Assembly: GCA_003161635.1 (NCBI GenBank) | Contig: PMOA01000065.1 | Location: forward strand, 159-39,845 | Origin: Limisphaerales bacterium | GTDB lineage: Bacteria; Verrucomicrobiota; Verrucomicrobiia; Limisphaerales; UBA11358 | Direction of reading: 5' to 3' | DNA length: 39,687 nt | Shown here: positions 5,518-27,895 of the stretch, piece by piece | How the letters are laid out: the number at the start of each line of letters is the position of its first letter | How positions within the stretch are numbered: the stretch's first letter is position 1 | Translations under genes and position numbers: made by a program | The notes under the pieces: generated by a model | The model's input: the letters and a program-made list of their open reading frames with translations, nothing else | What the model was told of the DNA's origin: nothing | Databases searched by the model: none

Positions 5518-6744
5518 TTACTTTTTATTTTTTGGCTTTGCTGGCGGCGCGTTGGTTTTGAACGCCGAGCGCAACAGCCAGTGCCGTTTCAGTCCCTGAA
5601 CCAGATCGTCCGCATCCGTGACGGCTTTTGAAATTCCACCCAGCAGGTTCGTATTCGCCTGAACCTGCGCGTTCAAATTGCTGGTGATGTCGGAAAGGTG
5701 GATGAGTATCGCTTCGAGATTTGTGTCCGTGTTCGCGAGGATCGAGTTGGCATTGGTCAAGGCGTTTTGCACCTGTTGTTCGCCGTTGGTGCCGAGCGCC
5801 CAAACGCCGAGGCCGCCCGGCTCGCGTAATTGCGCGCTCAAGACAACCAAGTTCGTCAGTGCGGGCCGGGCTTCGACGACGGCGGCGTTGAGGTTTGATG
5901 TGGCGTTTGCTGTGTTGTCCAACACGGTGGCGATTTGATTCGTCAGGGCCAAAATGTTCGGCAGCGCCTGCTGCACCTGGGCGACGACGGCTTGTAGTTG
6001 TTCGGTGACCGCGGGCGATTCGTCGGCGGGCAGCCAGATGGCGTCCCGTTCGGGGGTGAAATTTTCGTAACGGTGCAAACGCCGGCGCCACGACGCCACG
6101 ATGCGGTTGCGGTTGACGGTTTTGTTGAAGGCGTAAATGGAATTGGATTCGGGTTTCAATTCCGCGATGCGCCGCAGGTTGGATTCGGTCAACATCGTGT
6201 AAGCGCCGAAAACCAAGTTGGAATTTTCATCAAAGATGTCCTGGTAAAGCTGCCATTGGTCGGTTTCGGTGGCGACCAGTTGCTCCAGTTCGGGGATGGC
6301 TTTCACGAAAACCGGCTGCGTGACGCAGAGCGCGTAACCGTTCGTCGCGCGCGTGACTTCAAGCTGCCGCTGGTTAAGAAATCCGGCGGCGTTGATTTTC
6401 ACATACGACCCGCCGGTCCAGATGTAGCGGAAATACGGCTCGCGGACATCAAATACCACCTCGACGTCGTGGGGTTCGCGCGGCGGCATGGGATGGACCA
6501 CAAGAATCTGGCCGACTTGAAAACCCATCATATAAACCGGATCGCCCACGTTCAAACCGGCCGAGCTGTGAATGTAGGTGTGAAATTTCGCCTTGATGAC
6601 GAACCAGCCTTTGCGCTCCGCCGTGTGGTAAACGTAATAGCCAAAGCCGAACAGCAGCAGCGCCGTCGCCAGAAACACAAACCACCCCACCGCGCGTTCC
6701 ATGCGGCTGAGGCGCGTTCGCAATTGCGGAGTCAAATCTTGCAT
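5518..6744 (-). CDS. mlaD: MlaD-like MCE-domain protein, substrate-binding part of a lipid ABC transporter
   Basis: The 408-residue protein starts with a cytoplasmic basic stretch and one transmembrane helix (WFVFLATALLLFGFGYYVYH, about residues 21-40). It continues with an MCE domain recognisable from the SSAGLNVGDPVYMMGFQVGQI segment (about residues 64-84). The C-terminal third is a long Asn/Thr/Ala-rich helical region with repeated 'TNANSILANTDTNLEAIL...LSDITSNLNAQVQANTNLL' heptad character, as in MCE proteins that form periplasmic needles or barrels. It is anchored in the inner membrane and should collect or pass phospholipids between membranes. It is the last gene of the mlaE-mlaF-mlaD operon, 12 bases after the ATPase gene. 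It is much longer than E. coli MlaD (183 residues), nearer to LetB/PqiB-type lengths but with one MCE domain. Confidence 0.85.
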   Translation of the reverse strand: MQDLTPQLRTRLSRMERAVGWFVFLATALLLFGFGYYVYHTAERKGWFVIKAKFHTYIHSSAGLNVGDPVYMMGFQVGQILVVHPMPPREPHDVEVVFDVREPYFRYIWTGGSYVKINAAGFLNQRQLEVTRATNGYALCVTQPVFVKAIPELEQLVATETDQWQLYQDIFDENSNLVFGAYTMLTESNLRRIAELKPESNSIYAFNKTVNRNRIVASWRRRLHRYENFTPERDAIWLPADESPAVTEQLQAVVAQVQQALPNILALTNQIATVLDNTANATSNLNAAVVEARPALTNLVVLSAQLREPGGLGVWALGTNGEQQVQNALTNANSILANTDTNLEAILIHLSDITSNLNAQVQANTNLLGGISKAVTDADDLVQGLKRHWLLRSAFKTNAPPAKPKNKK

Positions 6745-6756
6745 GCCATGTTTTCC

Positions 6757-7551
6757 TCACATTGTCGCCGCCAGCGGGACCGCCAGCAATTCTTTTACCA
6801 CCGGATCATTCGACGTTTCAACCCTGCTCCACGAACCCAGCGCCGTGAACCGTTTGTCTTTCAACAGCGCGAATCGCCGCGCCTCGTCCCGCCATCCTGC
6901 CAGACGGGACAAATCGTCCGTCGTCATGACCATCGTCACCGGCTTGCCGCCCAGCCACTCATGTCCCCGCCACAACCGGTCGAGAAACCGCAGCGACCAT
7001 TGCAGGTGCCGCGCGCCCAGTCCGCTGAATGGATTGTCCAGCAGCAACACTTCCGGCTTGAGGACCAGCGCCCGCGCCAGCGCCGCGCGTTGAAGCCAGT
7101 CGGCGGCGACGTTCGCGGGTGTCACGTCGGCCAGCGGCGCCAGTTCCATCAAGTCCAGCAACGATTCCACTTCCTGCGCCGCCGCGGCGGCGGTCAGATT
7201 GTGACGATACTGCAACGGCAGCGCCACGTTTTCACCGAGGGTGAGGCGATTGAACAATTGTCCGCCTTCGAAAACAAATCCCAGCCGCAACCGCGAGGGC
7301 AGTTCCGCCTCGCCAAACGTCTGCGTTTCATTGCCGAAAAGCTTGTAGCTGCCCTTGACCGGCGCCATCAGCCCGGCCGTCATCTTCAAAAAATCGCTCT
7401 TGCCCGAATGTTGCTGCCCGGCGAGGACCCAGAATTCACCCGGCGCCACTGTCCAGTTCACGTCCTCAACCACCGTGAAACTGGTGTCGCGCATGGCGCC
7501 GACGCTTACATCGCGCATCTCAATTGCCGCCGGATTTTGGTTTTCGTTCAT
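6757..7551 (-). CDS. mlaF: MlaF-like ABC ATPase with degenerate catalytic motifs
   Basis: The 264-residue protein aligns by eye along its length with MlaF ATPases. Walker A is intact: GQQHSGKS at residues 45-52. The other motifs are altered: the Q-loop is FVFEGGQLF (Glu95 for Gln), the ABC signature LSGGx is VAADW (148-152), Walker B reads EVLLLDNPF (Asn173 for the catalytic Glu), the D-loop is SGLGA, and the switch region is MTTDD with no His. The RAALARAL helix after the signature is kept. It overlaps the mlaE stop by four bases (ATGA), so translation is coupled. ATP may still bind, but hydrolysis by the canonical mechanism looks impossible. It may work as a regulatory or structural subunit or pair with another ATPase; that is inference. 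Confidence 0.82.
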   Translation of the reverse strand: MNENQNPAAIEMRDVSVGAMRDTSFTVVEDVNWTVAPGEFWVLAGQQHSGKSDFLKMTAGLMAPVKGSYKLFGNETQTFGEAELPSRLRLGFVFEGGQLFNRLTLGENVALPLQYRHNLTAAAAAQEVESLLDLMELAPLADVTPANVAADWLQRAALARALVLKPEVLLLDNPFSGLGARHLQWSLRFLDRLWRGHEWLGGKPVTMVMTTDDLSRLAGWRDEARRFALLKDKRFTALGSWSRVETSNDPVVKELLAVPLAATM

Positions 7552-8408
7552 GCGACGAGGTAAAGGACGATGAACAACGCATCAATCAGGAGGCACACGA
7601 CGACGCCCTGCGTCACCGCGCGCACCGCCACGCGCGAAACCTCCTCGAGCCGCAGCGGCTGCGCCAGTCCGTGGTAACACGCCACAATCGCGATGAAAAA
7701 TCCGAACGCAACGGTCTTCAGCGCCAGCAGCGCGAAATCCAGCCAGCCCAGCGCCTCGGTCAGTTGTTTGAAATAGTCCCCCGGCGTCAGGGGCACGTCC
7801 TGCAAAAACGCCCACAAATACCCGCTCGCCAGCGCGCCGATGATCAAATAAACCGTCAGCGAAAAAATCCCCGCCATCATTCCCCACACGCGCGGCACGA
7901 TCAGGTAATGCACCGGGTCAATGCCCAATGCCTCCAGTGCCTCGACCTCGCCCATGGCGCGGGCCGTGCCCAGCTCGATCACGTGCGCCGTGCCCACGCG
8001 CGCCAGCACCAGTACCGCCGCCAGCAATGGCCCCAGTTCGCGCACCACCACAATCACCATCGTCGAGCCGAGATAATCCGTCGCGCCCACCCGCGCCAAG
8101 GCCGACACCGTCTGCCCGATGACGAGAAATCCCAGCGCGAACGCCACAAACATAAACATTGGCATCAACGCCACGCCCGCGCGGGCGATCTCCTGCCGGA
8201 TGCGTGGCCCCATCACGTTCCGCGCCACGCCGGTTTTTTTCAACATGACACCCAGCGTGATCAACGCAAACGCGCCCAGCCCCTGGATCGTGAGGAGCAA
8301 CAGGAACAATTTCCGGCCCAGAAGGTCGGTGTAGGATTTTGGCAGGGCGGCCCGGCGAAACACCTGCGTGTTCGTCAGTTCAAAGGCCTTTGCCGGATTC
8401 CCGCGCAT
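7548..8408 (-). CDS. mlaE: MlaE-like permease of the lipid ABC transporter
   Basis: The protein is a MlaE/permease-family integral membrane subunit with an amphipathic N-terminal helix and about five hydrophobic segments, including LFLLLLTIQGLGAFALITLGVML, ALMPMFMFVAFALGFLVIGQTV, STMVIVVVRELGPLLAAVLVLARVG and MMAGIFSLTVYLIIGALASGYLW. The RELGPLLAAVLVLARVGTAHVIELGTARAMGEVEALEALGI stretch is the family signature that contacts the ATPase. The ORF is open to 8567, but the first 53 residues there run through a palindromic repeat and overlap the divergent ligA start, so I use ATG 8408 (MRGNPAKAFELTN), giving 286 residues, nearer the ~260 of MlaE. It heads the operon and overlaps mlaF by four bases. 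Confidence 0.86.
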   Translation of the reverse strand: MRGNPAKAFELTNTQVFRRAALPKSYTDLLGRKLFLLLLTIQGLGAFALITLGVMLKKTGVARNVMGPRIRQEIARAGVALMPMFMFVAFALGFLVIGQTVSALARVGATDYLGSTMVIVVVRELGPLLAAVLVLARVGTAHVIELGTARAMGEVEALEALGIDPVHYLIVPRVWGMMAGIFSLTVYLIIGALASGYLWAFLQDVPLTPGDYFKQLTEALGWLDFALLALKTVAFGFFIAIVACYHGLAQPLRLEEVSRVAVRAVTQGVVVCLLIDALFIVLYLVA

Positions 8409-14329: not shown

Positions 14330-14420
14330 AACATCGAACATCCAACGCTCAACATCCAACATCGAATTGATTCGCAGCCGCGCGGTTTGCTTCAGCGTTC
14401 GATGTTCAATGTTCGATGTT
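14330..14420. repeat. palindromic 'aacatcgaacat' element overlapping the thiE stop
   Basis: AACATCGAACAT (14330-14341) pairs perfectly with ATGTTCGATGTT (14409-14420), with further copies of the same words inside both halves. The right end supplies the last codons of thiE (ENIEH-stop). The element marks the border between thiE and the toxin-antitoxin cargo and belongs to a repeat family that I recognise from Pedosphaera-like genomes. Confidence 0.8.
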
Positions 14421-15110
14421 TTCCAACCTTTGCTTAAATTCCGCGCAGGCCTTCGCCACGTCCGGCGCGTTCAGAATCGCGGACACCACACAAACGCGCT
14501 TTGCGCCTGCCGTTAAAACATCATCGAGATTTCCCAAATTGATGCCGCCGATGGCGAACCACGGAAGGTTCACCCCGCTTTGCGGGGCCGCCGCCCACCG
14601 GATATATTCCAGTGTCACCGGTTTCGCCATCGGCTTCGTGCCCGTTGCATAGACCGGCCCGATGGCGATGTAATCCGGTCCGGCGGCCAGTGCCCGCTTG
14701 GCCTGCTCCGGCGAATGCGTCGAAAGCCCAATTCGCACTTCTGGCAGGGCGTGCTCTCCAAGCGCGCCGGGCGGACGCCGGAGCGCGGCGTCCCTGCCTT
14801 TGAGTTGAGAGACGTGGGTATTCCCCGCATCAAAAAAATCCTCCTGTCCCAGATGACACAATTCCGCGCCGGTTTCGCGCGCGATTTCCAGGTGGTCGTT
14901 GATGACCAGGCCGACGTTCGCGCGGCGGGTGACGGGCAGAATCGCCTCGGCCATGCGGCGGATTTCGTCGGGCGACGACTTTTTGGCGCGGAGCTGGATC
15001 AGGTCCGCGCCGCCGTCGCAAAGTTGTTGCGCGAAGACCTCCGGCGCGCGGCCATGGAAGTAGGCCGTGTCAATAAAAGCGTAGAGCCGGCAGTCCGCGA
15101 GCGGTTTCAT
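14406..15110 (-). CDS. thiE: thiamine phosphate synthase
   Basis: ThiE joins HMP-pyrophosphate and thiazole phosphate to thiamine phosphate in the cytosol. The 234-residue product shows the TIM-barrel motifs in order: DLIQLRAKK, VGLVINDH, AELCHLGQED, IGLSTHSPEQAKRAL, DYIAIGPVYATGTKP and PWFAIGGI. Between VSQL and VRIGLSTHS lies an extra segment, KGRDAALRRPPGALGEHALPE, encoded by a palindromic element (14743-14798). The natural C-terminus after AEFKQRL is replaced by ENIEH, which comes from another repeat. The gene is monocistronic as far as can be seen. A diverged copy of its 3' end lies beyond the PIN/antitoxin pair. Confidence 0.92.
   Translation of the reverse strand: MKPLADCRLYAFIDTAYFHGRAPEVFAQQLCDGGADLIQLRAKKSSPDEIRRMAEAILPVTRRANVGLVINDHLEIARETGAELCHLGQEDFFDAGNTHVSQLKGRDAALRRPPGALGEHALPEVRIGLSTHSPEQAKRALAAGPDYIAIGPVYATGTKPMAKPVTLEYIRWAAAPQSGVNLPWFAIGGINLGNLDDVLTAGAKRVCVVSAILNAPDVAKACAEFKQRLENIEH
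14743..14798. repeat. palindromic element inserted in frame in thiE
   Basis: Outer arms GGCAGGG (14743-14749) and CCCTGCC (14792-14798), and an inner perfect hairpin GGACGCCG-GAGCG-CGGCGTCC (14773-14793). It codes for about 20 residues absent from ordinary ThiE proteins without breaking the frame. It lies at a surface loop position before the GLSTHS motif, judged from motif order. Confidence 0.7.
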
Positions 15111-16431: not shown

Positions 16432-17199
16432 CTATCCCGTCCGCCGCGCGATGAACAAATGGCTGAACCAACTGGCGCGCTGCTCGGTCAGTTGCCAATT
16501 TCTTTTGTCAGGCCAGAGCGCGGAAAGTTCTTCACGGACAAAACCCGCTCGCACGCTCACCGTCGCGTCGTGTCGCGTGACAGAATTGCAGCCAATCGCC
16601 CAAAGCAGCCGGCTGCAAAACAACGGCCAGGATGCGCGGCGCGGCTCGATGGCGATGAACAAGCGCGTGCGACCGGCAATCACGCGAAACAACCCGGCCA
16701 GACGCGCGTCGTCGAAATGGTGCAGAATTTCATTTGCAACAACGATTTCCGCCGGGGCCGAAGTTTGCGGCCAGTCAAAAACGTCCGCGACGACCGCTTC
16801 CGCGCGCCAGCCGAGCGATGCGAAAGCTGCCAGCGTTTGCGGCGTCACGACTTTTTGGCGGTCGAGCAGCGTCACGTTCACTTCATTCCACGGGCCCGTT
16901 GCCCGGAGTCCCGCCCCGCCCACTGCGGGACGGTTCGGGCCGTCCGGCGAAGTGCGGGACGGGACTCCAAACGATGAGAGCCGCCGCGCCACGCGCAGCA
17001 GGAAATCGCCGTCGCCCGCGCCGAGTTCGGTGATTTGTTTTGGCGTTTGGCCGTTCACGGCGGTTTGCAACGCGCGAACCATGATGGCGTGGTTGCGCAT
17101 CCAGGTGTTGAGCCGGCGCAAATCGCGGCGCGAGCCGGCGGCGCGCGGGTCGCCAGGCGGTAATCCATCGAGTAATTCCGGTTCGATGATGCGTTTCAC
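16432..17199 (-). CDS. class I SAM-dependent methyltransferase
   Basis: The protein shows motif I ELGAGDGDFLLRVA, an acidic residue at the end of strand 2 in VNVTLLD, EAVVADVFDWP and IVVANEILHHFDD, as in small-molecule O- or C-methyltransferases. The track ORF starts at 17244, but its first 15 codons overlap a palindromic repeat; I prefer GTG 17199 (VKRIIEPELLDGLPPGDPRAAGSRRDLRRLN), giving 255 residues. Between RRLSS and VNVTLLD lies FGVPSRTSPDGPNRPAVGGAGLRATGPWNE, a long Pro/Gly/Arg insert encoded by a palindromic element. The gene lies 12 bases before the oxidoreductase gene and probably shares its message. In intact clusters it methylates the PKS product. Confidence 0.83.
   Translation of the reverse strand: MKRIIEPELLDGLPPGDPRAAGSRRDLRRLNTWMRNHAIMVRALQTAVNGQTPKQITELGAGDGDFLLRVARRLSSFGVPSRTSPDGPNRPAVGGAGLRATGPWNEVNVTLLDRQKVVTPQTLAAFASLGWRAEAVVADVFDWPQTSAPAEIVVANEILHHFDDARLAGLFRVIAGRTRLFIAIEPRRASWPLFCSRLLWAIGCNSVTRHDATVSVRAGFVREELSALWPDKRNWQLTEQRASWFSHLFIARRTG
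16905..16968. repeat. palindromic element inserted in frame in the methyltransferase gene
   Basis: GGAGTCCCGCCCCGC (16905-16919) pairs with GCGGGACGGGACTCC (16954-16968) at 14 of 15 positions, around an inner hairpin GGACGG-TTCGGG-CCGTCC. The frame is kept and about 22 residues are added between strand 1 and strand 2 of the Rossmann fold, a loop where insertions are tolerated. Confidence 0.75.
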
Positions 17200-17217: not shown

Positions 17218-17270
17218 GGTGGGGCGAGGCTGCTGATCCCGCAATGCGGGACGAGGACGCTCGCCCCACC
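17218..17270. repeat. palindromic element between PKS pseudogene and methyltransferase
   Basis: GGTGGGGCGAG (17218-17228) and CTCGCCCCACC (17260-17270) are a perfect 11-bp outer pair; CCCGCA-A-TGCGGG (17238-17250) is an inner hairpin. It lies in the translational leader of the methyltransferase if GTG 17199 is the start. Confidence 0.75.
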
Positions 17271-17286: not shown

Positions 17287-17573
17287 TCAAGTTTCTTTCA
17301 CTTCCAGCAATGCACCGTGGCAACTGAATCTCGCGCCGAACGCCGACATCCACCAGAGGCTGTCGGGCACGATGTCATGCAACGCACGTACGAGCACGAA
17401 AAAACGGTCGGGCTGCTCAGGATGCCGTTGTCGCCGCAGAGCACTTTTTGGAGAATGGCGCGCGACCGCGGCGCGAGCCGGGCGAATGGCGCGGATTTTT
17501 GCAGCGCGTCCCAGCATTCGCGCTGGGTGTAGCGTTGGGGCGGGGCGGCGACTCCGAGTCCGGCAATAAACAT
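17287..17573 (-). pseudogene. type III polyketide synthase with internal deletion and frameshift
   Basis: From ATG 17573 the reading MFIAGLGVAAPPQRYTQRECWDALQ...LAPRSRAILQKVLCGDNGI is the N-terminus of a chalcone-synthase-like enzyme. It then passes directly into LSSPTV, and in the -1 frame FFVLVRALHDIVPDSLWWMSAFGARFSCHGALLEVKET-stop, the C-terminal end of the same family (the usual GNLSSPTV and FGxGFSxHGALLEV). About 250 central residues with the catalytic Cys and His are missing. A lost T in the run 'ccgttttttcg' explains the frameshift. The gene cannot be functional. A full-length relative would be ~350 residues and would make an alkylpyrone or resorcinol-type product. Confidence 0.85.
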
Positions 17574-17657
17574 ATTCCAGCTTAACGCGCCTTTTGTTGG
17601 CGCGTCATTTCCATGGTAGGATGCCGAAAAAAATGACTTGTTCCAAGTTGATTTAAC

Positions 17658-17712: not shown

Positions 17713-18999
17713 TTACTTCACGCCGACGAGATAACCGAAGCGTTCGCGGAACTGACCGGGTGTCATGGAAACGACGGCGGCGAGCCGGGAGAGCTGTTTC
17801 GCGTCCTCAAAATCGTCGCGTTCCAGCCGGATCATGTAGGCGCAAGCACATTCGTAAGCTTCGCCGTCCACGTTGACCTGGCGCGTTTGCATGCGGCCGG
17901 TCTGTGGATTGAGCATTTTGTCGAACGGCAGCGGAATCATTTTGCCGTCCACGAAGCTGATGATGGCGCCGTATTTTTCGGCTTCGGGCGAGAGCAGAAA
18001 TTTCACCGCGGCATAACCGAGGTCGCGCGTGTATTCGGCGTCGAACGGAATCGGGTCGGCGCAGCGGAGTTCGTAGCCGAGGTCCTTGTCAATGAAGCCC
18101 ATTTTAATGCCGAGCTTTTCGAGACGCGCGGTCAGCAGCTCTTTCATCAGGCGGCCAAATTCAATTTCACCGAGACGCAAATGGCCGTGCTCGTCGCGAA
18201 CGACTTTGCCGAAACGTTCCAAATGTCCGTCGGGCAGCGCCTTGACCAGTCCCTGCTCGCCCATCGCTTCGATGAGGCCTTCGGCGAGGATGGCAATGCC
18301 GTATTGCGAACCATCGGCGCGGCGCTTGATGATGGAGCCGATGATGATGTCGCACACCTCATCAATCGTGACCTGCCGTCCGCGAAATTCCTCCGGAATG
18401 ATGGCGAGCGTGGCCGCGGCGGCCTTGGCGATGCCGAGCGCGAGATGTCCCGCCGCGCGTCCCATGCTGATGATGATATACCAGCGCGAAGTGGTGCGCG
18501 CGTCCTCGGCGAGATTGCGGACAATGTGAACGCCGTAGTGCCGTGCCGTTTCAAATCCAAATGTCGGCGTCGAACCGGGCAGGGGCAGATCGTTGTCAAT
18601 CGTCTTCGGCACGTGAGCGACGCGGATTTTGCCTTTGCTTTGTTTGGCCACGACGCTGGCGGAAAACGCCGTGTCGTCGCCGCCAATCGTGACCAGCGCG
18701 GTGATGCCCAGCTTTTCAAAAACGCTGAAGACATTTTTCATCTGCGTTTCCGACTTCGTGGGATTCGTGCGGGCGGTTCCCAGGATGGAGCCGCCGCGCA
18801 GATGAATTTCCCTCACGTCACGAATCGCCAGCGGCCGGCAATACTGCACCTCGCCCTGCGCGAGCCACTTGAAGCCGTCCCGGAAGCCGATGACTTCGTA
18901 GCCCTGGTTGATGCCTTCGATGGTGGCCGCCGCGATGACGCCGTTGCTGCCCGGCGCCGGGCCGCCACCGACCAAAATTCCCAATCTGCCTTTGCTCAT
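17713..18999 (-). CDS. pfp: PPi-type 6-phosphofructokinase
   Basis: The 428-residue protein belongs to the phosphofructokinase family, which phosphorylates fructose 6-phosphate in glycolysis (reversibly with pyrophosphate). Motifs seen: GILVGGGPAPGSNGVI at the N-terminus, GGDDT at residues 106-110, PKTIDND at 131-137 and MGRAAGH. The second Asp in GGDD and the Lys in PKTIDND are the known markers of PPi rather than ATP use (ATP enzymes have GGDGS and PGTIDND). Length fits the long PPi-dependent clade. It has its own terminator and is divergent from gmhB. PPi use is inferred from motifs. Confidence 0.92.
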   Translation of the reverse strand: MSKGRLGILVGGGPAPGSNGVIAAATIEGINQGYEVIGFRDGFKWLAQGEVQYCRPLAIRDVREIHLRGGSILGTARTNPTKSETQMKNVFSVFEKLGITALVTIGGDDTAFSASVVAKQSKGKIRVAHVPKTIDNDLPLPGSTPTFGFETARHYGVHIVRNLAEDARTTSRWYIIISMGRAAGHLALGIAKAAAATLAIIPEEFRGRQVTIDEVCDIIIGSIIKRRADGSQYGIAILAEGLIEAMGEQGLVKALPDGHLERFGKVVRDEHGHLRLGEIEFGRLMKELLTARLEKLGIKMGFIDKDLGYELRCADPIPFDAEYTRDLGYAAVKFLLSPEAEKYGAIISFVDGKMIPLPFDKMLNPQTGRMQTRQVNVDGEAYECACAYMIRLERDDFEDAKQLSRLAAVVSMTPGQFRERFGYLVGVK

Positions 19000-19703: not shown

Positions 19704-21605
19704 ATGTGCGGCATCATCGGATACGTTGGTAAAAAAGCGGCCACGCCCATCATCCTCGAAGGATTGCGGCGGCTGGAATATCGCGGCTACGACAGCGCAG
19801 GCATCGCCGTGTTGCACAACGGCAGGTTACTGGTTCGCAAGAAAAAGGGGAAAATCGGCGAAGGCCTCGCCCGCCTGCTGAAATCCGAACCGGTCGCGGG
19901 GAATCTCGGCATCGGCCACACGCGCTGGGCCACGCACGGGCCGCCGTCGGATATCAATTCCCATCCGCACCTCGACCAATCCGGCCGGATCGCCGTCGTC
20001 CATAACGGCGTCATCGAAAATTACGACGCGCTCAAGCAAAAGCTGCTCGCCACCGGCCATAAATTCAAATCCGGCACCGACACCGAGGTGCTCGCGCATT
20101 TGATCGGCGATTATTACGAAAAACGGCGTAGCCGCCGATGTGAATCGGCGGATGGTCCGCGCTTTGACAAGCGCGGCTACAAGATTAACGGGAACGACCT
20201 TATCCAGGCCGTCTGCGATGCGCTGCGCGAAGTCATCGGCACCTACGGCATTGCGGTGATTTGCGCCGACGAGCCTGACACCATTGTCGGTGCGCGGCGC
20301 GGTTCGCCACTCATCATCGGCATCGGCACGGATGAAAATTTCCTGGCCAGTGATGCCAATGCCATCGTCGCCCACACAAAAAAAGTCGTTTATCTCAACG
20401 ACTACGACGTTGCGACGATTAAGTCCGAACGCTTCGACGTTCTGAACCTCGGCGCGGACACCGCCAACGTCCAGATCAGCAATCTCGAATTCAGCCAAGA
20501 GGACGCCGCGCGCGGGGATTTCGAGCACTTCATGCTCAAGGAAATTTTCGAGCAGCCGCGCACGGTGGAAAACGCCTTGCGCGGTCGCGTGGACACCGAA
20601 GGTGCGACCGCCAAGTTTGGCGGCTTAAACATGACGCCCGCGCAACTGTGCTCAATCAAACGCATCATCATCGCTGCCAGCGGCACGAGCTGGCACGCGG
20701 CGCTCGTGGGCGAGTATTTGATTGAGGAACTCGCGCAAATTCCGGTCGAGGTTGAGTTCGCGCACGAATTTTGTTACCGCAACGCGCCGCTCGAACGCGA
20801 CACCGTGCTGCTCGTTCTCTCGCAATCAGGCGAGACGGCGGACACGCTCGCCGCGTTGCGTGAGGCCAAGCGCCGCGGCCACCGCGCGCTCGCCATCGTC
20901 AACGTCGTCGGCAGCACCATCGCGCGCGAATCCGACGGCGGCATTTACATGCACGCCGGACCGGAAATCGGCGTGGCGTCCACCAAGGCCTTTGTCTCCA
21001 CGCTCACGATCCTGGCGCTGCTGGCTGTGCATCTGGGCCGGATGCGGACGTTGTCCGCCCGCCGGGCCCTGGAAATTCTACACGCGTTGGAGGCTGTGCC
21101 CAAACAGCTCGAATCCATCCTCGCGCAAAACAACGCGCTCAAAAAGATAGCGAAGAAATATGCGAAGGCCGACGACTTCTTTTTCCTTGGTCGCGGTTAC
21201 ACGTTCCCCATTGCGCTCGAAGGCGCGCTCAAGCTGAAGGAAATTTCCTACATCCACGCCGAGGGCTATTCGGCGGCGGAAATGAAGCACGGCCCGATTG
21301 CGTTGATTGACCCGAAGACGCCGACGGTTTTCCTGGTGCCGCAGGATTCAATGTATGACAAGACGATGGCTAACCTGGCAATGATTCGTGCGCGCAAAGG
21401 CCCCATCATCGCGCTGGCCACCGAAGGCGACAAACAAATCGGGAAGGTGGCCAACGACGTGATTTACCTGCCGAAGGCGTTGGAACTGATTAATCCGATT
21501 CTGGCCACCGTGCCGCTGCAGTTGTTCGCCTATCACATCGCCGTCGTGCGCGGCTGCGACGTGGACAAGCCGAGGAATCTGGCCAAGAGCGTGACGGTGG
21601 AATAA
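19704..21605 (+). CDS. glmS: glutamine-fructose-6-phosphate aminotransferase (isomerizing)
   Basis: GlmS makes glucosamine 6-phosphate from fructose 6-phosphate and glutamine, the first step to UDP-GlcNAc. The 633-residue product has the N-terminal nucleophile Cys2 (MCGIIGYVG), HTRWATHG, HNGVIENYDALK and SGTDTEVLAHLIGDYY in the glutaminase domain. The two SIS domains follow, with AASGTSWHAALVGEYLIEELA, LVLSQSGETADTLAALREAK, EIGVASTKAFVSTL, and GRGYTFPIALEGALKLKEISYIHAEGYSAAEMKHGPIALI. The C-terminus CDVDKPRNLAKSVTVE is canonical and is the attTn7-type target. About 20 residues (RRSRRCESADGPRFDKRGYKIN, near 142-163) are encoded by a palindromic element at the domain border. A diverged copy of the last ~55 bp lies at 34041-34095. 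Confidence 0.96.
   Translation: MCGIIGYVGKKAATPIILEGLRRLEYRGYDSAGIAVLHNGRLLVRKKKGKIGEGLARLLKSEPVAGNLGIGHTRWATHGPPSDINSHPHLDQSGRIAVVHNGVIENYDALKQKLLATGHKFKSGTDTEVLAHLIGDYYEKRRSRRCESADGPRFDKRGYKINGNDLIQAVCDALREVIGTYGIAVICADEPDTIVGARRGSPLIIGIGTDENFLASDANAIVAHTKKVVYLNDYDVATIKSERFDVLNLGADTANVQISNLEFSQEDAARGDFEHFMLKEIFEQPRTVENALRGRVDTEGATAKFGGLNMTPAQLCSIKRIIIAASGTSWHAALVGEYLIEELAQIPVEVEFAHEFCYRNAPLERDTVLLVLSQSGETADTLAALREAKRRGHRALAIVNVVGSTIARESDGGIYMHAGPEIGVASTKAFVSTLTILALLAVHLGRMRTLSARRALEILHALEAVPKQLESILAQNNALKKIAKKYAKADDFFFLGRGYTFPIALEGALKLKEISYIHAEGYSAAEMKHGPIALIDPKTPTVFLVPQDSMYDKTMANLAMIRARKGPIIALATEGDKQIGKVANDVIYLPKALELINPILATVPLQLFAYHIAVVRGCDVDKPRNLAKSVTVE
20128..20180. repeat. palindromic element inserted in frame in glmS
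   Basis: GTAGCC (20128-20133) and GGCTAC (20175-20180) form the outer pair. Within are two perfect 8-bp hairpins with 4-base loops: CCGCCGAT-GTGA-ATCGGCGG (20132-20151) and CCGCGCTT-TGAC-AAGCGCGG (20157-20176). The frame is open through it. It has the same three-way layout as the elements at 8463 and 19641. Confidence 0.85.
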
Positions 21606-21964: not shown

Positions 21965-24900
21965 ATGAAAGAGATAGGAGTCAAGCGAGTCCAAAAGACG
22001 GATGCATTCGCAATAAACTATCACTTCTGCCGTCGCGTTTCCGGCGGTGTGTTCATCGCGCTGGTGTTGGCGATCTTCAGCGCCGCTCCGGCGCAGGCCA
22101 CCTCTGTGCTGGGCACAACCGCGCTTTTGGAAGGGCCGACGGCAGGCAGCGATAGCGTCGTTCTGGCTGTAGATCCTCCAGCCGCCTGGACGGCCACGGC
22201 CAATGACACCTGGCTGCACCTGAGTGTGGCCAACCAAAGCGGCACGGGCAGCACCAACGTGGTGTTCAGTTGCGACGCCAACCCGGGCGCCACGCGCGCG
22301 GGCACCCTCACCATCGCCGGCCACACGCTCACCGTAACCCAGGCTGCCCCGGGTTACGCCCCTGCGCCTTTAACGCCGACCGCGCTGGTGTCTTCAGGGC
22401 TGCACTATCCCGTTGGCGTTGTTGCGGACGGCGCGGGCAACGTTTACATCGCTGATACTATAAACAACGCCCTCAAACAATGGACGCCCGCAAGCAATAC
22501 CGTCACCGCGCTGGTTGCCTCCGGATTATCCTCTCCGTCGGGCATGGCCGTGGATGGCGCGGGCAATGTTTACGTCGCCGATCCCGGCAACAATGCGATT
22601 AAGGAATGGGTGGCGGCGAGCAACACTCTGAATACGTTGGTGGCCTCGGGATTGTCCTCCCCGTCCGGCGTCGCCATCGACGGCGCGGGGAATCTTTACA
22701 TTACCGAGACTGGCGGCAGCGCCGTAAAGAAATGGACGGCGACCAACAGCACCGTGAGCGTGCTGACGATATCGGGTTACGATGGCGGTCCAGCGGCGGT
22801 GGATTTGGTGGGCAATGTTTACTTTATCAATAACAACTTTGTCAATAACACTGCGCTCCAGAAGTGGACGGCCGCCAACGGCACGGTATTAACATTGGCT
22901 GTCTCGGGACCAATATATTCTCCGATTGGGATGGCCGTTGACGTATCCGGCAACGTTTACGTAGACGACCGGGACGCCATGATGATCAAGAAGTGGACGG
23001 CGGCCAGCAACACCTTGAGCACGCTGGTACAGTTCAGCCTGAACGCCATGTATGGTGGCGTGGCGGTCGATGGCGCGGGCAATATCTACTTCCCCTACTT
23101 CTCGGGCATCGATTACGCCATCTTGGAATTGCCGCATGCCTTCGTGGATGTAACGCCCAAATCGGAGACTGCCGACGCTGGCAGCGATGTCTTGTCCCAA
23201 GTGCTGCCCGCCACGGCCAATTTGCTTTCCCCGTTCGCGCCGACCAGCGATCGGTCCTGGCTGACCATCACGGGTACCACCAACGGTGTGGTGAGTTTTG
23301 CCTTTACCGCCACCATTTCCAATCGCACGGCTCATATCAATTTGCTGGGCCAAAACATTTCAATCAACCAGGGTCCCGTGTGTTCGCTGAGCCCAACTGC
23401 CCTCTCGGAAGGGCCAACTGCAGGAAGTGATAGTGTCGCTTTGACTGTGGTCCCTGAAACCGGTCTCTGGACGGCCACGGCCAATGCCAACTGGTTGCAT
23501 CTCAGCGCGACAAACCAAAGTGGCACCGGTAGCACCACGGTTGTCTTCAGTTACGATGCCAATCCCGGGGCCGCGCGCGTTGGCACCCTCACCATCGGCG
23601 GCCAGACGCTCACCGTGACGCAACAGGCCGCTCCAGCTTACCTGATTCCAACCGCGCTTTTGGAAGGGCCAACCGCGGGCAGTGATAGTGTCCTTCTCAC
23701 CGTGACTCCGGAAACCACTACGTGGACGGCTTCCGCCAATGATTCCTGGTTGCATCTCAGCGTGACGAACCAAAGCGGCACGGGTAGCACCACGATTGTC
23801 TTCAGTTACGATTCCAATCCCGGGGATACGCGCGTCGGCACCCTGACCATCGCCGGCCAGACGCTCACGGTGACACAACAAGGCCCTCCCTATGTCCTGG
23901 GCACAATTGCGCCTTTGGAAGGGCCGGCGGCGGGCACGGATAGTGTCGTTCTGGCCATCAGCCCTGAAAGCGACACCTGGACGGCTACGGCCAATGAGGC
24001 CTGGCTGCATTTGAGTGCGGCGAACCAAAGCGGCACGGGCAGCACCAACGTGGTGTTCAGTTACGACTCCAACCCGGGCGCCACGCGCGTGGGCACCCTC
24101 ACCGTCGCCGGTAAGACGCTCACCGTGACCCAAGCCGGCCCGACTTATGACGCCGTACCCCCATCATTGACCACGCTCGTTTCGACGGGTTTGTCCATGC
24201 CTTATGGCGTGGCGGTTGATAGCGCGGGGAATGTTTATATCGCTGACAGCTACCATAGCGCGATCAAGAAGTGGACGGCAGCCAGCAACACCGTGACCAC
24301 GCTGGTTTCCTCCGGATTGTCTTCTCCCCGAGGCGTGGCGATGGATAGCGTCGGCAATGTTTACATTGCTGATGCTTCTCTCAATGCGATCAGAAAGTGG
24401 ACGGCGGCCAGCAACACGGTAACCACGTTGGTCTCCTCGGGATTGTCCGCTCCCCAAGGAGTGGCGGTGGACGGCGGCGGCAATGTTTACATCGCCGACA
24501 CCTCGCACAACCTGATCAAAGAGTGGTCGGTGGCCAATAATAAAACGACTACACTGGTATCGTCGGGACTCAACGATCCCGAAGGCGTGGCAGTGGATGG
24601 CTCTGGCAATGTTTACATCGCCGATACCTACAACAACACGATCAAGAAGTGGACGGCGGCAAACAGCAACGTGACCACACTAGTCTCCTCGGGATTATAC
24701 TATCCTTCTGGCATCGCGGTCGATGGAGCGGGCAGTGTTTACATCGCTGACACCTATCACAGCATGATTAAGAAGTGGACGGCAGCCAGCAGCACCGTAA
24801 CCACGTTGGTCTCCTCGGGAGTCAGCTATCCGTGGGGTGTGGCGGTCGATGGCGCAGGCAACGTTTACATCGTCGACAACTACAGTAACTCGGTCAAAGA

Positions 24901-27895
24901 GCTGCCGCATGCCTTCGTGGACGCGACAACAAAATTCGAAGGTCCCGCCGCTGGGAGCGATGTATTGCCGGTGGTGCTGCCCGCCACGGCCAATTTGCTT
25001 CCGCCGTTCAGCCCGACCAATGACCAGGCATGGCTGACCATCAATGGAGTTACCAACGGCGTGCTGAGTTTCAGCTTCAGCGCCTCCGCCGCAACCAATC
25101 GCACCGCCCACCTGACTCTGCTGGGCCAATCCGTCCCGATTGTACAGCAGGGATCCAATTTCCTCGGCGCAACCGCGCTGCTGGAAGGGCCAGCGGCAGG
25201 CGCGGATAGCGTCGTTTTGCGCGTGATCCCGGAAACCTCTCCCTGGACGGCCAAAGCTAATGCCTCCTGGCTGCATCTGAGTGCGGCGAACCAAAGCGGT
25301 ACGGGCAGCACCAACGTGGTCTTCAGCTTCGATGCCAACCCGGACGTCACGCGCACGGGCACTCTCACTATCGCCGGCTGGACGCTGACCATTACCCAGG
25401 CCGGTTCAAGCTATATCGCGGCGCCTCAGCCACTGACAACGCTGGCCTCGGGGTTGAACCACCCGAATAGCGTGGCGATGGACGGCGCCGGGAATGTTTA
25501 CATCGCTGACACAGCCAATAACGCGATCAAAAAGTGGACGATGACGAGCAACGCGGTGACGACGCTGGTTGCCTCCGGGTTGAATGGTCCCGCCGGCGTG
25601 GCGGTTGATGGCGCGGGCAATGTTTACATTGCCGACCGCGGCAATAATGCGATCAAAAAGTGGATAGCGGCGAATAACGTCGTGGCCACGCTGGTCGCCT
25701 CGGAGCTGAACGCTCCCTCGGGTGTGGCGGTTGATGGCGTGGGCAATGTTTACGTTGCTGATACCGGCAATAACGCGGTCAGGAAATGGACGACGTCCAG
25801 CAACACGGTGACGACGCTGGTTGTCTCGGGGCTGAACGGTCCCGTCGGCGTGGCGGTGGACGGCGCGGGCAATGTTTACATTGCCGACACTGGCAATAAC
25901 ACGATCAAAAAGTGGACGGCGGCGAATAACTCCGTGACCACACTGATTGATTCGGCCTTGAATGGTCCCCAAGGGGTTGCGGTAGATGGCTCGGGCAATG
26001 TTTACATCGCTGACAGTGGCAATAACACGATCAAAAAGTGGACGGCGACTGACAACACTGTAACTACACTGGCTGCCTCGGGGTTGAACGGCGCCGCTGG
26101 CGTAGCGGTGGACGGCGCCCGCAATATTTACATTGCCGACACCGGCAACAACGCTGTTAAGGAACTGGTTTATGCCTTCGTCAACCCGATGCCCCGATAT
26201 GAAGGGGCTGATGCCGGCAGCGATGTGCCGATGGTGTTGCCGCTTACGGCAAATTTGCTCGCCCCGTTCACTCCGACCAGTGACCAGTCGTGGCTAACCG
26301 TCAACATCAGCACCAATGGCACGGTCAGTTTTACCTTCACCACCAACGTCGGCGACGTCCGCATAGCCCATGTCACTCTGCTCGGTCAAACCATCCTGTT
26401 CGTGCAGTCAGGTCTCTCATATGCCTTGGGCACAAGTTCCATTTTGGATGGTGCCACGGCCGGCACGGATAGCGTTGTTGTGGCCGTGAGTCCATCAATC
26501 GTTTCATGGACGGCCACGGCCAATGCCGGCTGGTTACACCTATCCACTGCAAGCCAAAGCGGAACGGGCAGCACCAACCTGGTGTTCAGCTACGATGCCA
26601 ACCCGGGCACCACCCGCACCGGCACCCTCACCATTGCCGGCCAGACGCTTGCTGTTGCTCAAGCTGGCTCAACCTATCTTGCGGCGCCAGCACCCGTTAC
26701 AACTCTGGTTTCTACGGGTTTGAACCAGCCTCTTAGCTTGGCAGTGGACGGCGCGGGCAATGTTTACATCGCTGATCGGGGCAATAACGCAATCAAGGAG
26801 TGGGTAGTGGCGAGCAATACCGTAACCACGCTTGTGGCTTCAGGATTGTCGTCGCCTTTTGGCGTAGCCGTGGATGGTGAGGGAAACGTTTACATCGCTG
26901 ACACTGGCAATAATGCGATCAAAAAGTGGGTGGCGGCGAGCAACAGCGTTATAATGCTGGTGGCCTCGGGTTTATCGTCCCCTTTTGAGTTGGCGGTGGA
27001 TGGCGCGGGCAACGTTTATATTGCAGATACTGGCGGGATCAAAAAATGGTCAGCCTTGAATAATACCGTGACCACGCAAGTGTCCATCTTCCAGCCCGCC
27101 GGGGTCGCGGTGGATGCAGCGGGTAACGTTTATATTGCTGACGACTATAGTGCGATCAAGAAATGGACGGCGGCTAAGAACATGCTGACCACGTTGGTTT
27201 CTGGGCTGAACGCGCCTGCCGGCGTCGCAGTGGATGGTGCCGGTAACGTTTACATCGCCGACACCTTCAATGGTGCAATCAAGAAATGGACAGCGGCGAA
27301 CAACACTGTGACCACTTTGGTCTTCACGGGATTAAATCGTCCGGAAAGCGTTGCGGTTGATAGCTCGGGCAATGTTTATATCGCTGATTCCAACAACAAC
27401 GCCGTCAAGGAACTGCCGCGCGCCTTCGTAGATCCGACTGGGAAGTTGGAAGCACCTGCGGCAGGCAACGATGTTTTGCCCGTAGTGCTGCCAGCCACGG
27501 TAAATTTGCTTCCCCCGTTCTCGCCGACGAGTGACCAACCATGGCTGGCCATCACCGGTTTCACCGATGGCGTCGTGAGCTTTACCTTTGGCGCCACCGT
27601 TTCCAACCGCAGCGCCAACATCACCTTGCTCGGCCAAACCATTTCCGTCACTCAAGCCGCTCCCCCGATCCTGGTTGACGCCCGGATGCTGACCAACGGC
27701 ATGTTTCAGTTTGCCTTCGCCTACGGCGACTCCAACGCCTCCTTTACCGTGCTGACGTCCACCAATCTTTCATTGCCGTTGGCCAACTGGATCGTGCTCG
27801 GCGTGGCCACCAATACCGCTCCCGGCCTGTTCCAGTTCGCCACTCCAGCCGCCACGAATGATCGGCAACGCTTCTACCGTGTCGCGTTGCCCTAG
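21965..27895 (+). CDS. giant secreted protein: four six-bladed NHL propellers with BACON-like domains
   Basis: The 1976-residue protein has a signal sequence (VFIALVLAIFSAAPAQA, cleavage near 46). It is built from four units. Each has a BACON-like beta domain (xLGTTALLEGPTAGSDSVVL...WLHLS..NQSGTGSTNVVFSYDANPGATRxGTLTIAGxTLTVTQA, at ~48, 642, 1065, 1485, with two extra copies at ~477 and ~560). This is followed by six NHL repeats (GVAVDGAGNVYIADTGNNAIKKWTAASNTVTTLVASGL) and a second beta domain beginning AFVDxTxKxEGxxAGSD (at ~390, 982, 1404, 1820). I count exactly six NVYIAD-type blades per block, 24 in all. The last ~75 residues are the verrucomicrobial C-terminal module. NHL propellers usually bind proteins or glycans, and BACON domains are thought to bind carbohydrate or mucin; cell-surface adhesion is inference. 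The DNA is highly repetitive, so assembly of copy number may be uncertain. Confidence 0.9.
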   Translation: MKEIGVKRVQKTDAFAINYHFCRRVSGGVFIALVLAIFSAAPAQATSVLGTTALLEGPTAGSDSVVLAVDPPAAWTATANDTWLHLSVANQSGTGSTNVVFSCDANPGATRAGTLTIAGHTLTVTQAAPGYAPAPLTPTALVSSGLHYPVGVVADGAGNVYIADTINNALKQWTPASNTVTALVASGLSSPSGMAVDGAGNVYVADPGNNAIKEWVAASNTLNTLVASGLSSPSGVAIDGAGNLYITETGGSAVKKWTATNSTVSVLTISGYDGGPAAVDLVGNVYFINNNFVNNTALQKWTAANGTVLTLAVSGPIYSPIGMAVDVSGNVYVDDRDAMMIKKWTAASNTLSTLVQFSLNAMYGGVAVDGAGNIYFPYFSGIDYAILELPHAFVDVTPKSETADAGSDVLSQVLPATANLLSPFAPTSDRSWLTITGTTNGVVSFAFTATISNRTAHINLLGQNISINQGPVCSLSPTALSEGPTAGSDSVALTVVPETGLWTATANANWLHLSATNQSGTGSTTVVFSYDANPGAARVGTLTIGGQTLTVTQQAAPAYLIPTALLEGPTAGSDSVLLTVTPETTTWTASANDSWLHLSVTNQSGTGSTTIVFSYDSNPGDTRVGTLTIAGQTLTVTQQGPPYVLGTIAPLEGPAAGTDSVVLAISPESDTWTATANEAWLHLSAANQSGTGSTNVVFSYDSNPGATRVGTLTVAGKTLTVTQAGPTYDAVPPSLTTLVSTGLSMPYGVAVDSAGNVYIADSYHSAIKKWTAASNTVTTLVSSGLSSPRGVAMDSVGNVYIADASLNAIRKWTAASNTVTTLVSSGLSAPQGVAVDGGGNVYIADTSHNLIKEWSVANNKTTTLVSSGLNDPEGVAVDGSGNVYIADTYNNTIKKWTAANSNVTTLVSSGLYYPSGIAVDGAGSVYIADTYHSMIKKWTAASSTVTTLVSSGVSYPWGVAVDGAGNVYIVDNYSNSVKELPHAFVDATTKFEGPAAGSDVLPVVLPATANLLPPFSPTNDQAWLTINGVTNGVLSFSFSASAATNRTAHLTLLGQSVPIVQQGSNFLGATALLEGPAAGADSVVLRVIPETSPWTAKANASWLHLSAANQSGTGSTNVVFSFDANPDVTRTGTLTIAGWTLTITQAGSSYIAAPQPLTTLASGLNHPNSVAMDGAGNVYIADTANNAIKKWTMTSNAVTTLVASGLNGPAGVAVDGAGNVYIADRGNNAIKKWIAANNVVATLVASELNAPSGVAVDGVGNVYVADTGNNAVRKWTTSSNTVTTLVVSGLNGPVGVAVDGAGNVYIADTGNNTIKKWTAANNSVTTLIDSALNGPQGVAVDGSGNVYIADSGNNTIKKWTATDNTVTTLAASGLNGAAGVAVDGARNIYIADTGNNAVKELVYAFVNPMPRYEGADAGSDVPMVLPLTANLLAPFTPTSDQSWLTVNISTNGTVSFTFTTNVGDVRIAHVTLLGQTILFVQSGLSYALGTSSILDGATAGTDSVVVAVSPSIVSWTATANAGWLHLSTASQSGTGSTNLVFSYDANPGTTRTGTLTIAGQTLAVAQAGSTYLAAPAPVTTLVSTGLNQPLSLAVDGAGNVYIADRGNNAIKEWVVASNTVTTLVASGLSSPFGVAVDGEGNVYIADTGNNAIKKWVAASNSVIMLVASGLSSPFELAVDGAGNVYIADTGGIKKWSALNNTVTTQVSIFQPAGVAVDAAGNVYIADDYSAIKKWTAAKNMLTTLVSGLNAPAGVAVDGAGNVYIADTFNGAIKKWTAANNTVTTLVFTGLNRPESVAVDSSGNVYIADSNNNAVKELPRAFVDPTGKLEAPAAGNDVLPVVLPATVNLLPPFSPTSDQPWLAITGFTDGVVSFTFGATVSNRSANITLLGQTISVTQAAPPILVDARMLTNGMFQFAFAYGDSNASFTVLTSTNLSLPLANWIVLGVATNTAPGLFQFATPAATNDRQRFYRVALP

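Follow-up and report, generated by a model that had tools for sequence, protein, structure and literature searches.

Loss of the type III polyketide synthase gene from a conserved Limisphaerales operon whose tailoring genes remain open

The locus described here raises the question of why two tailoring genes should remain open beside a type III polyketide synthase (PKS) gene that has been reduced to its two ends. The original prediction offered three readings, namely that the loss was very recent, that the two enzymes had found a new role or that another PKS served them; very recent loss and still useful enzymes both remain as explanations, and the other PKS was left without support. The locus lies in a window of 39,687 nucleotides, the whole stretch of DNA that was analysed, on contig C129 of a 4.31 Mb draft genome of a Limisphaerales bacterium (G000; 159 contigs, 94.6% complete). 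On the minus strand the gene order is pfkA, the PKS remnant, a methyltransferase gene (MT), an FAD oxidoreductase gene (FAD) and thiE (Table 1). The nearest relative compared, G003, which is also a member of the Limisphaerales and has an intact PKS gene, was used as the reference.

Table 1. Features of the operon and its surroundings, in window coordinates.
Feature	Position	Strand	Evidence
Type III PKS pseudogene	17287..17573	-	blastn against G003 and frame analysis
Deletion junction, GACAACGGCATC / CTGAGCAGC	17412..17432	-	Window against intact G003; catalytic Asn position gone
One-base deletion	17394..17405	-	GTTTTTTCGTGC against GTTTACTTCGTGC in G003
SAM methyltransferase (MT), second operon gene, intact, 255 aa	16432..17199	-	PF13649, 27.3 bits; genus orthologues
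FAD oxidoreductase/hydroxylase, third operon gene, intact, 346 aa	15388..16428	-	PF01494, 38.9 bits, above cut-off
pfkA-like gene, upstream neighbour	17713..18999	-	Synteny in G008, G009, G016, G021, G004, G035
thiE, downstream neighbour	14406..15110	-	Synteny in G003, G008, G009, G016, G020, G024, G022, G004, G035
Palindromic element between PKS remnant and MT gene	17218..17270	.	Inverted repeat I4, arms 26 nt, 81% complementary

Comparison of the window with the intact G003 gene by nucleotide blastn gave two collinear pieces, with identities of 92% over 175 nt (N-terminal; this stretch takes in the leader) and 83% over 130 nt (C-terminal). With E-values of 3e-71 and 6e-35, respectively, the match to G003 was not due to chance. 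When the intact G003 PKS was searched against the whole genome the remnant was found at G000:C129:17573-17731 and 17457-17618. The remnant consists of codons 1-51 joined to codons 311-351 of the 358-codon G003 gene, starts at the ATG at 17573 and has its frame-corrected stop at 17289-17287, in agreement with the predicted coordinates. The homologous residues that are left number 51 in the N-terminal piece and 41 in the C-terminal piece, and the predicted remnant of about 50 and about 45 residues was thus described accurately. Its identity as a type III PKS pseudogene was established by homology, since the G003 orthologue matches chalcone synthases in the PDB (E 2e-30) and PF00195; the 91-aa open reading frame (ORF) of the remnant and its two pieces, which are too short, had no Pfam match.

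The two matching pieces are separated by 777 nt (259 codons) that are present in G003 only, codons 52-310 being gone from the window. In intact G003 the sequence CGGCA is found at either end of this segment, which is the pattern that a short-repeat deletion should leave. The deleted segment takes with it Cys142, His277 and Asn310 (G003 numbering), which align with the catalytic triad of chalcone synthase. Since the whole triad lay within the deleted codons, the gene no longer encodes a working PKS, and the predicted removal of the active site was borne out. The deletion join keeps the reading frame, and the annotatable ORF is the one of 91 aa (17573-17298). It ends at 17298 because a single base is absent from the C-terminal piece (GTTTAYTTCGTG to GTTTTTTCGTG). 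This is the "lost T" of the original prediction, placed at about 17405-17394; the base falls in a T6 run, and its exact identity is ambiguous.

The leftover pieces of the PKS gene show further decay beyond the deletion, in the form of the frameshift and of altered invariant glycines. Two of 34 invariant residues in the remnant were changed (G to S and G to R), both of them glycines that are invariant across the 28 intact PKS homologues compared. In branch codon models (our own fit, GY94-type, F3x4, six taxa) the remnant had an omega of 0.38 on the G000 branch, compared to a background of 0.09 (LRT 4.2). The loss falls on the terminal G000 branch, after G000 and G003 had diverged, and represents gene decay of an ordinary and fairly recent kind.

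The two genes next to the remnant had been predicted to be open, and both frames are open across the whole length of their families, the MT length being counted from the homologous GTG start at about 17199. The GAGDG motif is present in the tailoring enzymes, which are of full length, and the FAD protein is 86% identical to its G003 counterpart. A GC-rich palindromic element (16905-16968; arms 29 nt, 79% complementary) lies inside the MT frame and adds about 28 residues past the SAM-binding motif; the same loop carries a shorter version of the element in G003 and different insertions in G009 and G023.

The arrangement pfkA–PKS–MT–FAD–thiE is the ancestral site and is conserved in the genus, with synteny on both flanks in the relatives that had sufficient contig (G008, G009, G016, G004 and G035). 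A PF00195 match was found in 35 of 49 genus genomes and a long FAD match in 37, and MT is present in a similar number of them to the FAD gene; as the original prediction had suggested, relatives were compared for an intact gene, and most members of the genus, G003 among them, proved to have a whole PKS. Where checked (28 relatives), PKS, MT and FAD are consecutive, run in the same direction and often overlap, and the window retains this order with a dead PKS. The family sample comprises this genus alone, so that a family-wide search added nothing; across the order the FAD gene was found in 122 of 320 genomes.

Operons of this general kind are known from other bacteria. The srsABC genes of Streptomyces griseus, which may involve different enzyme families than the Limisphaerales operon, encode a type III PKS, a methyltransferase and a flavoprotein hydroxylase that make modified phenolic lipids. 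By architecture and literature alone, rather than by comparison with the HidA, HidB, HidC and Gimesia maris proteins, the present operon would be placed with the hierridin-like or alkylresorcinol type. Two arrangements of the hierridin-like hidABC clusters have been described in cyanobacteria, one of which is hidC>hidA>hidB (PMC8086630). Like these clusters, the operon is a compact unit of type III PKS, methyltransferase and oxidoreductase with the PKS first; it differs in the phylum of its host and in that its PKS is a pseudogene, whereas the loss reported from cyanobacterial hid clusters is of the oxidoreductase (PMC8086630). The same three gene functions are found in the alkylresorcinol operon of Planctomycetota, in which the PKS makes pentadecyl- and heptadecylresorcinols and co-expression of the methyltransferase and oxidoreductase adds one methyl group; its gene order is MT-FAD-PKS, in contrast to PKS-MT-FAD with a dead PKS here (PMC10896814).

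An FAD gene without a whole PKS was found in only three of the 122 order genomes that have the gene, G000, G040 and G024, contig-edge cases aside, as counted by reading the FAD and PKS match lists against each other. With so few cases, the PKS-less state of MT and FAD is rare and confined to the tips of the tree. G040 and G024 are weaker cases than the window. Constraint is still seen in the 135 C-terminal PKS codons left in G040 (omega 0.068), and at about 2780-3250 of L048 (G040:C87) a single junction truncates both the PKS gene and a histidine-kinase-like reading. Either recombination took place there very recently or the contig is chimeric, and G040 was rejected as a clean second loss. In L043 (G024:C181, 1-560), as read by eye, the MT and FAD operon with about 12 C-terminal PKS codons adjoins an antisense GNAT-like reading; this loss is plausible as a real second PKS-less operon, in a genome that is 69% complete and on a contig that begins about 470 nt upstream.

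Other candidates were set aside. The contigs of G102, G156 and G277 end near the FAD gene, which accounts for the missing whole PKS, and an apparent FAD remnant in G041 was only a contig edge. G031, which has a PKS without MT and FAD, carries a different operon: in L050 (G031:C15, about 6400-8300), from the same genus, a UbiE-like methyltransferase gene and AMP-ligase-like genes, named by eye, come after a type III PKS gene. A possible frameshift was seen in the PKS of G157. In G077, a member of the order (L062/L063; C9, C43), the FAD gene is on a separate contig from the PKS and MT, and G048, like a few members of the order, has a second PKS copy (C313-type).

The selection acting on the tailoring genes was estimated with the branch codon models, which supplied the dN/dS check that the original prediction had proposed. 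For MT and FAD combined, omega on the G000 branch was 0.26, significantly below 1 (LRT 20.8), compared to a background of 0.17 (LRT 3.3). It was 0.36 in the PKS-bearing sister G003, and the neighbour thiE, as a control, gave 0.09 and 0.16. With open frames, conserved motifs and purifying selection, MT and FAD have the properties of functional tailoring enzymes. When the G000 branch was divided into a constrained and a neutral part, the neutral share came out at 0.3 in the PKS remnant (support interval about 0.01-1) and at 0.1 in MT and FAD (0-0.29), which brackets the age of the loss only loosely; since these intervals overlap, codon rates alone cannot tell ongoing selection apart from a young loss. 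Site conservation discriminated better. None of 120 residues that are invariant in PKS-bearing relatives was altered in MT and FAD, a borderline contrast to the two of 34 in the remnant (Fisher p about 0.05, hand-calculated). Had both genes been neutral since the PKS was lost, the probability that stops and invariant-site changes would both be absent is about 0.003 (flat prior on loss age, weighted by the age profile of the remnant), or 0.045 for a loss at 5% of the branch. These probabilities suggest that selection on MT and FAD probably outlived the PKS, with a very young loss as a possible alternative, and the evidence as a whole leans moderately towards continued selection.

The explanation that we favour, with modest confidence, is that an ancestral operon lost its PKS on the host's own branch and that MT and FAD most likely were still made and used afterwards. 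The ancestral operon would have been of the alkylresorcinol (hierridin-like) type, with the order PKS, MT, FAD, and it lost its PKS on the branch of the host species. Deletion between the two CGGCA copies removed the 777 nt in frame together with all three catalytic residues, accompanied by the one-base frameshift and probably by drift of the leftovers. The in-frame scar probably left transcription of the downstream MT and FAD genes undisturbed, and their retention, which has moderate support, suggests that both products would have stayed in use after the loss. A candidate substrate would be a resorcinol- or quinol-like phenolic lipid from outside this PKS, perhaps an endogenous compound of the quinol type or one acquired from neighbouring cells. 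It is conceivable, and on the doubtful side, that the MT and FAD pair has an independent role on a phenolic lipid or quinol that does not come from the operon PKS, such that cells can drop the PKS and keep the pair under selection; G024 would then be a second independent case.

The strongest competitor to continued use of MT and FAD is a young loss, in which the tailoring genes have not yet been damaged and the operon has been caught early in decay; we consider it quite possible, if not our preferred account. The codon data are compatible with a loss at 5-10% of the branch followed by neutrality of MT and FAD, and if these genes and the PKS remnant are made to share a neutral fraction of about 0.1, both are fitted at a cost of only 0.5 lnL units. 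The restriction of PKS-less operons to tree tips and the slight excess of the MT and FAD omega over background on the G000 branch point the same way. However, omega is equal or higher in the PKS-bearing sister, so the slight excess does not go with loss of the PKS. Furthermore, at a neutral fraction of about 0.1 MT and FAD should have accumulated about 5.6 changes to stops or at invariant sites, and none was seen (P about 0.004); at half that age the probability of an undamaged pair is still only the 0.045 given above.

That the cell has a different ketosynthase or PKS which supplies MT and FAD with their substrate is very unlikely in our judgement. The incompleteness of the draft would allow for it, as would the C313-type second copies and the separate FAD gene of G077 described above. 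In contrast, no match to PF00195 or PF02797 was found in the 94.6% complete G000 genome, and the intact G003 PKS, used as the query, retrieved the two remnants and a third, weaker match that is presumably FabH-like. Apart from the remnant, neither a type III PKS nor any clear PKS homologue was detectable in G000, of which about 5% may be missing. We give hardly any credence to an assembly or sequencing artefact that conceals an intact PKS gene in the living cell. The draft is fragmented, the lost base falls in a homopolymer run, and the G040 junction indicates that PKS-truncating joins in such drafts may be chimeric. Collapse of the assembly, which the original prediction had raised, is nevertheless unlikely here: the bounding repeat, at 5 nt, is too short to cause it, the sequence on each side of the remnant is collinear with that of relatives, and the remnant itself has the frameshift and independent substitutions at invariant glycines.

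The PKS, the type of operon and the mode of loss are all of known kinds, to which this locus adds one more instance, and the sole potentially surprising part is the moderately supported persistence of selection beyond the synthase. If the tailoring pair does outlive its PKS, this would point to phenolic lipids that are shared or scavenged in communities, the cell finishing what its neighbours make, or to a second substrate; otherwise the locus is a snapshot of a small biosynthetic operon decaying with its synthase first. Under either outcome, a hierridin-like three-gene operon, as classed above, is documented as a conserved feature of an uncultivated Limisphaerales genus, in which it occupies a single fixed position on the chromosome.

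Further repeat elements were observed in the window. An in-frame, palindrome-like insertion in thiE (about 14730-14800) is present in G000 and G003 and absent from the four other thiE genes compared, and glmS (20120-20182) apparently carries a similar in-frame insertion. In-gene, in-frame repeat elements of this kind recall the Rickettsia palindromic elements. Finally, a 1976-aa open frame at 21965-27895 was seen by eye to contain repeated beta-propeller-like (NHL-type) units that alternate with Ig-like segments.
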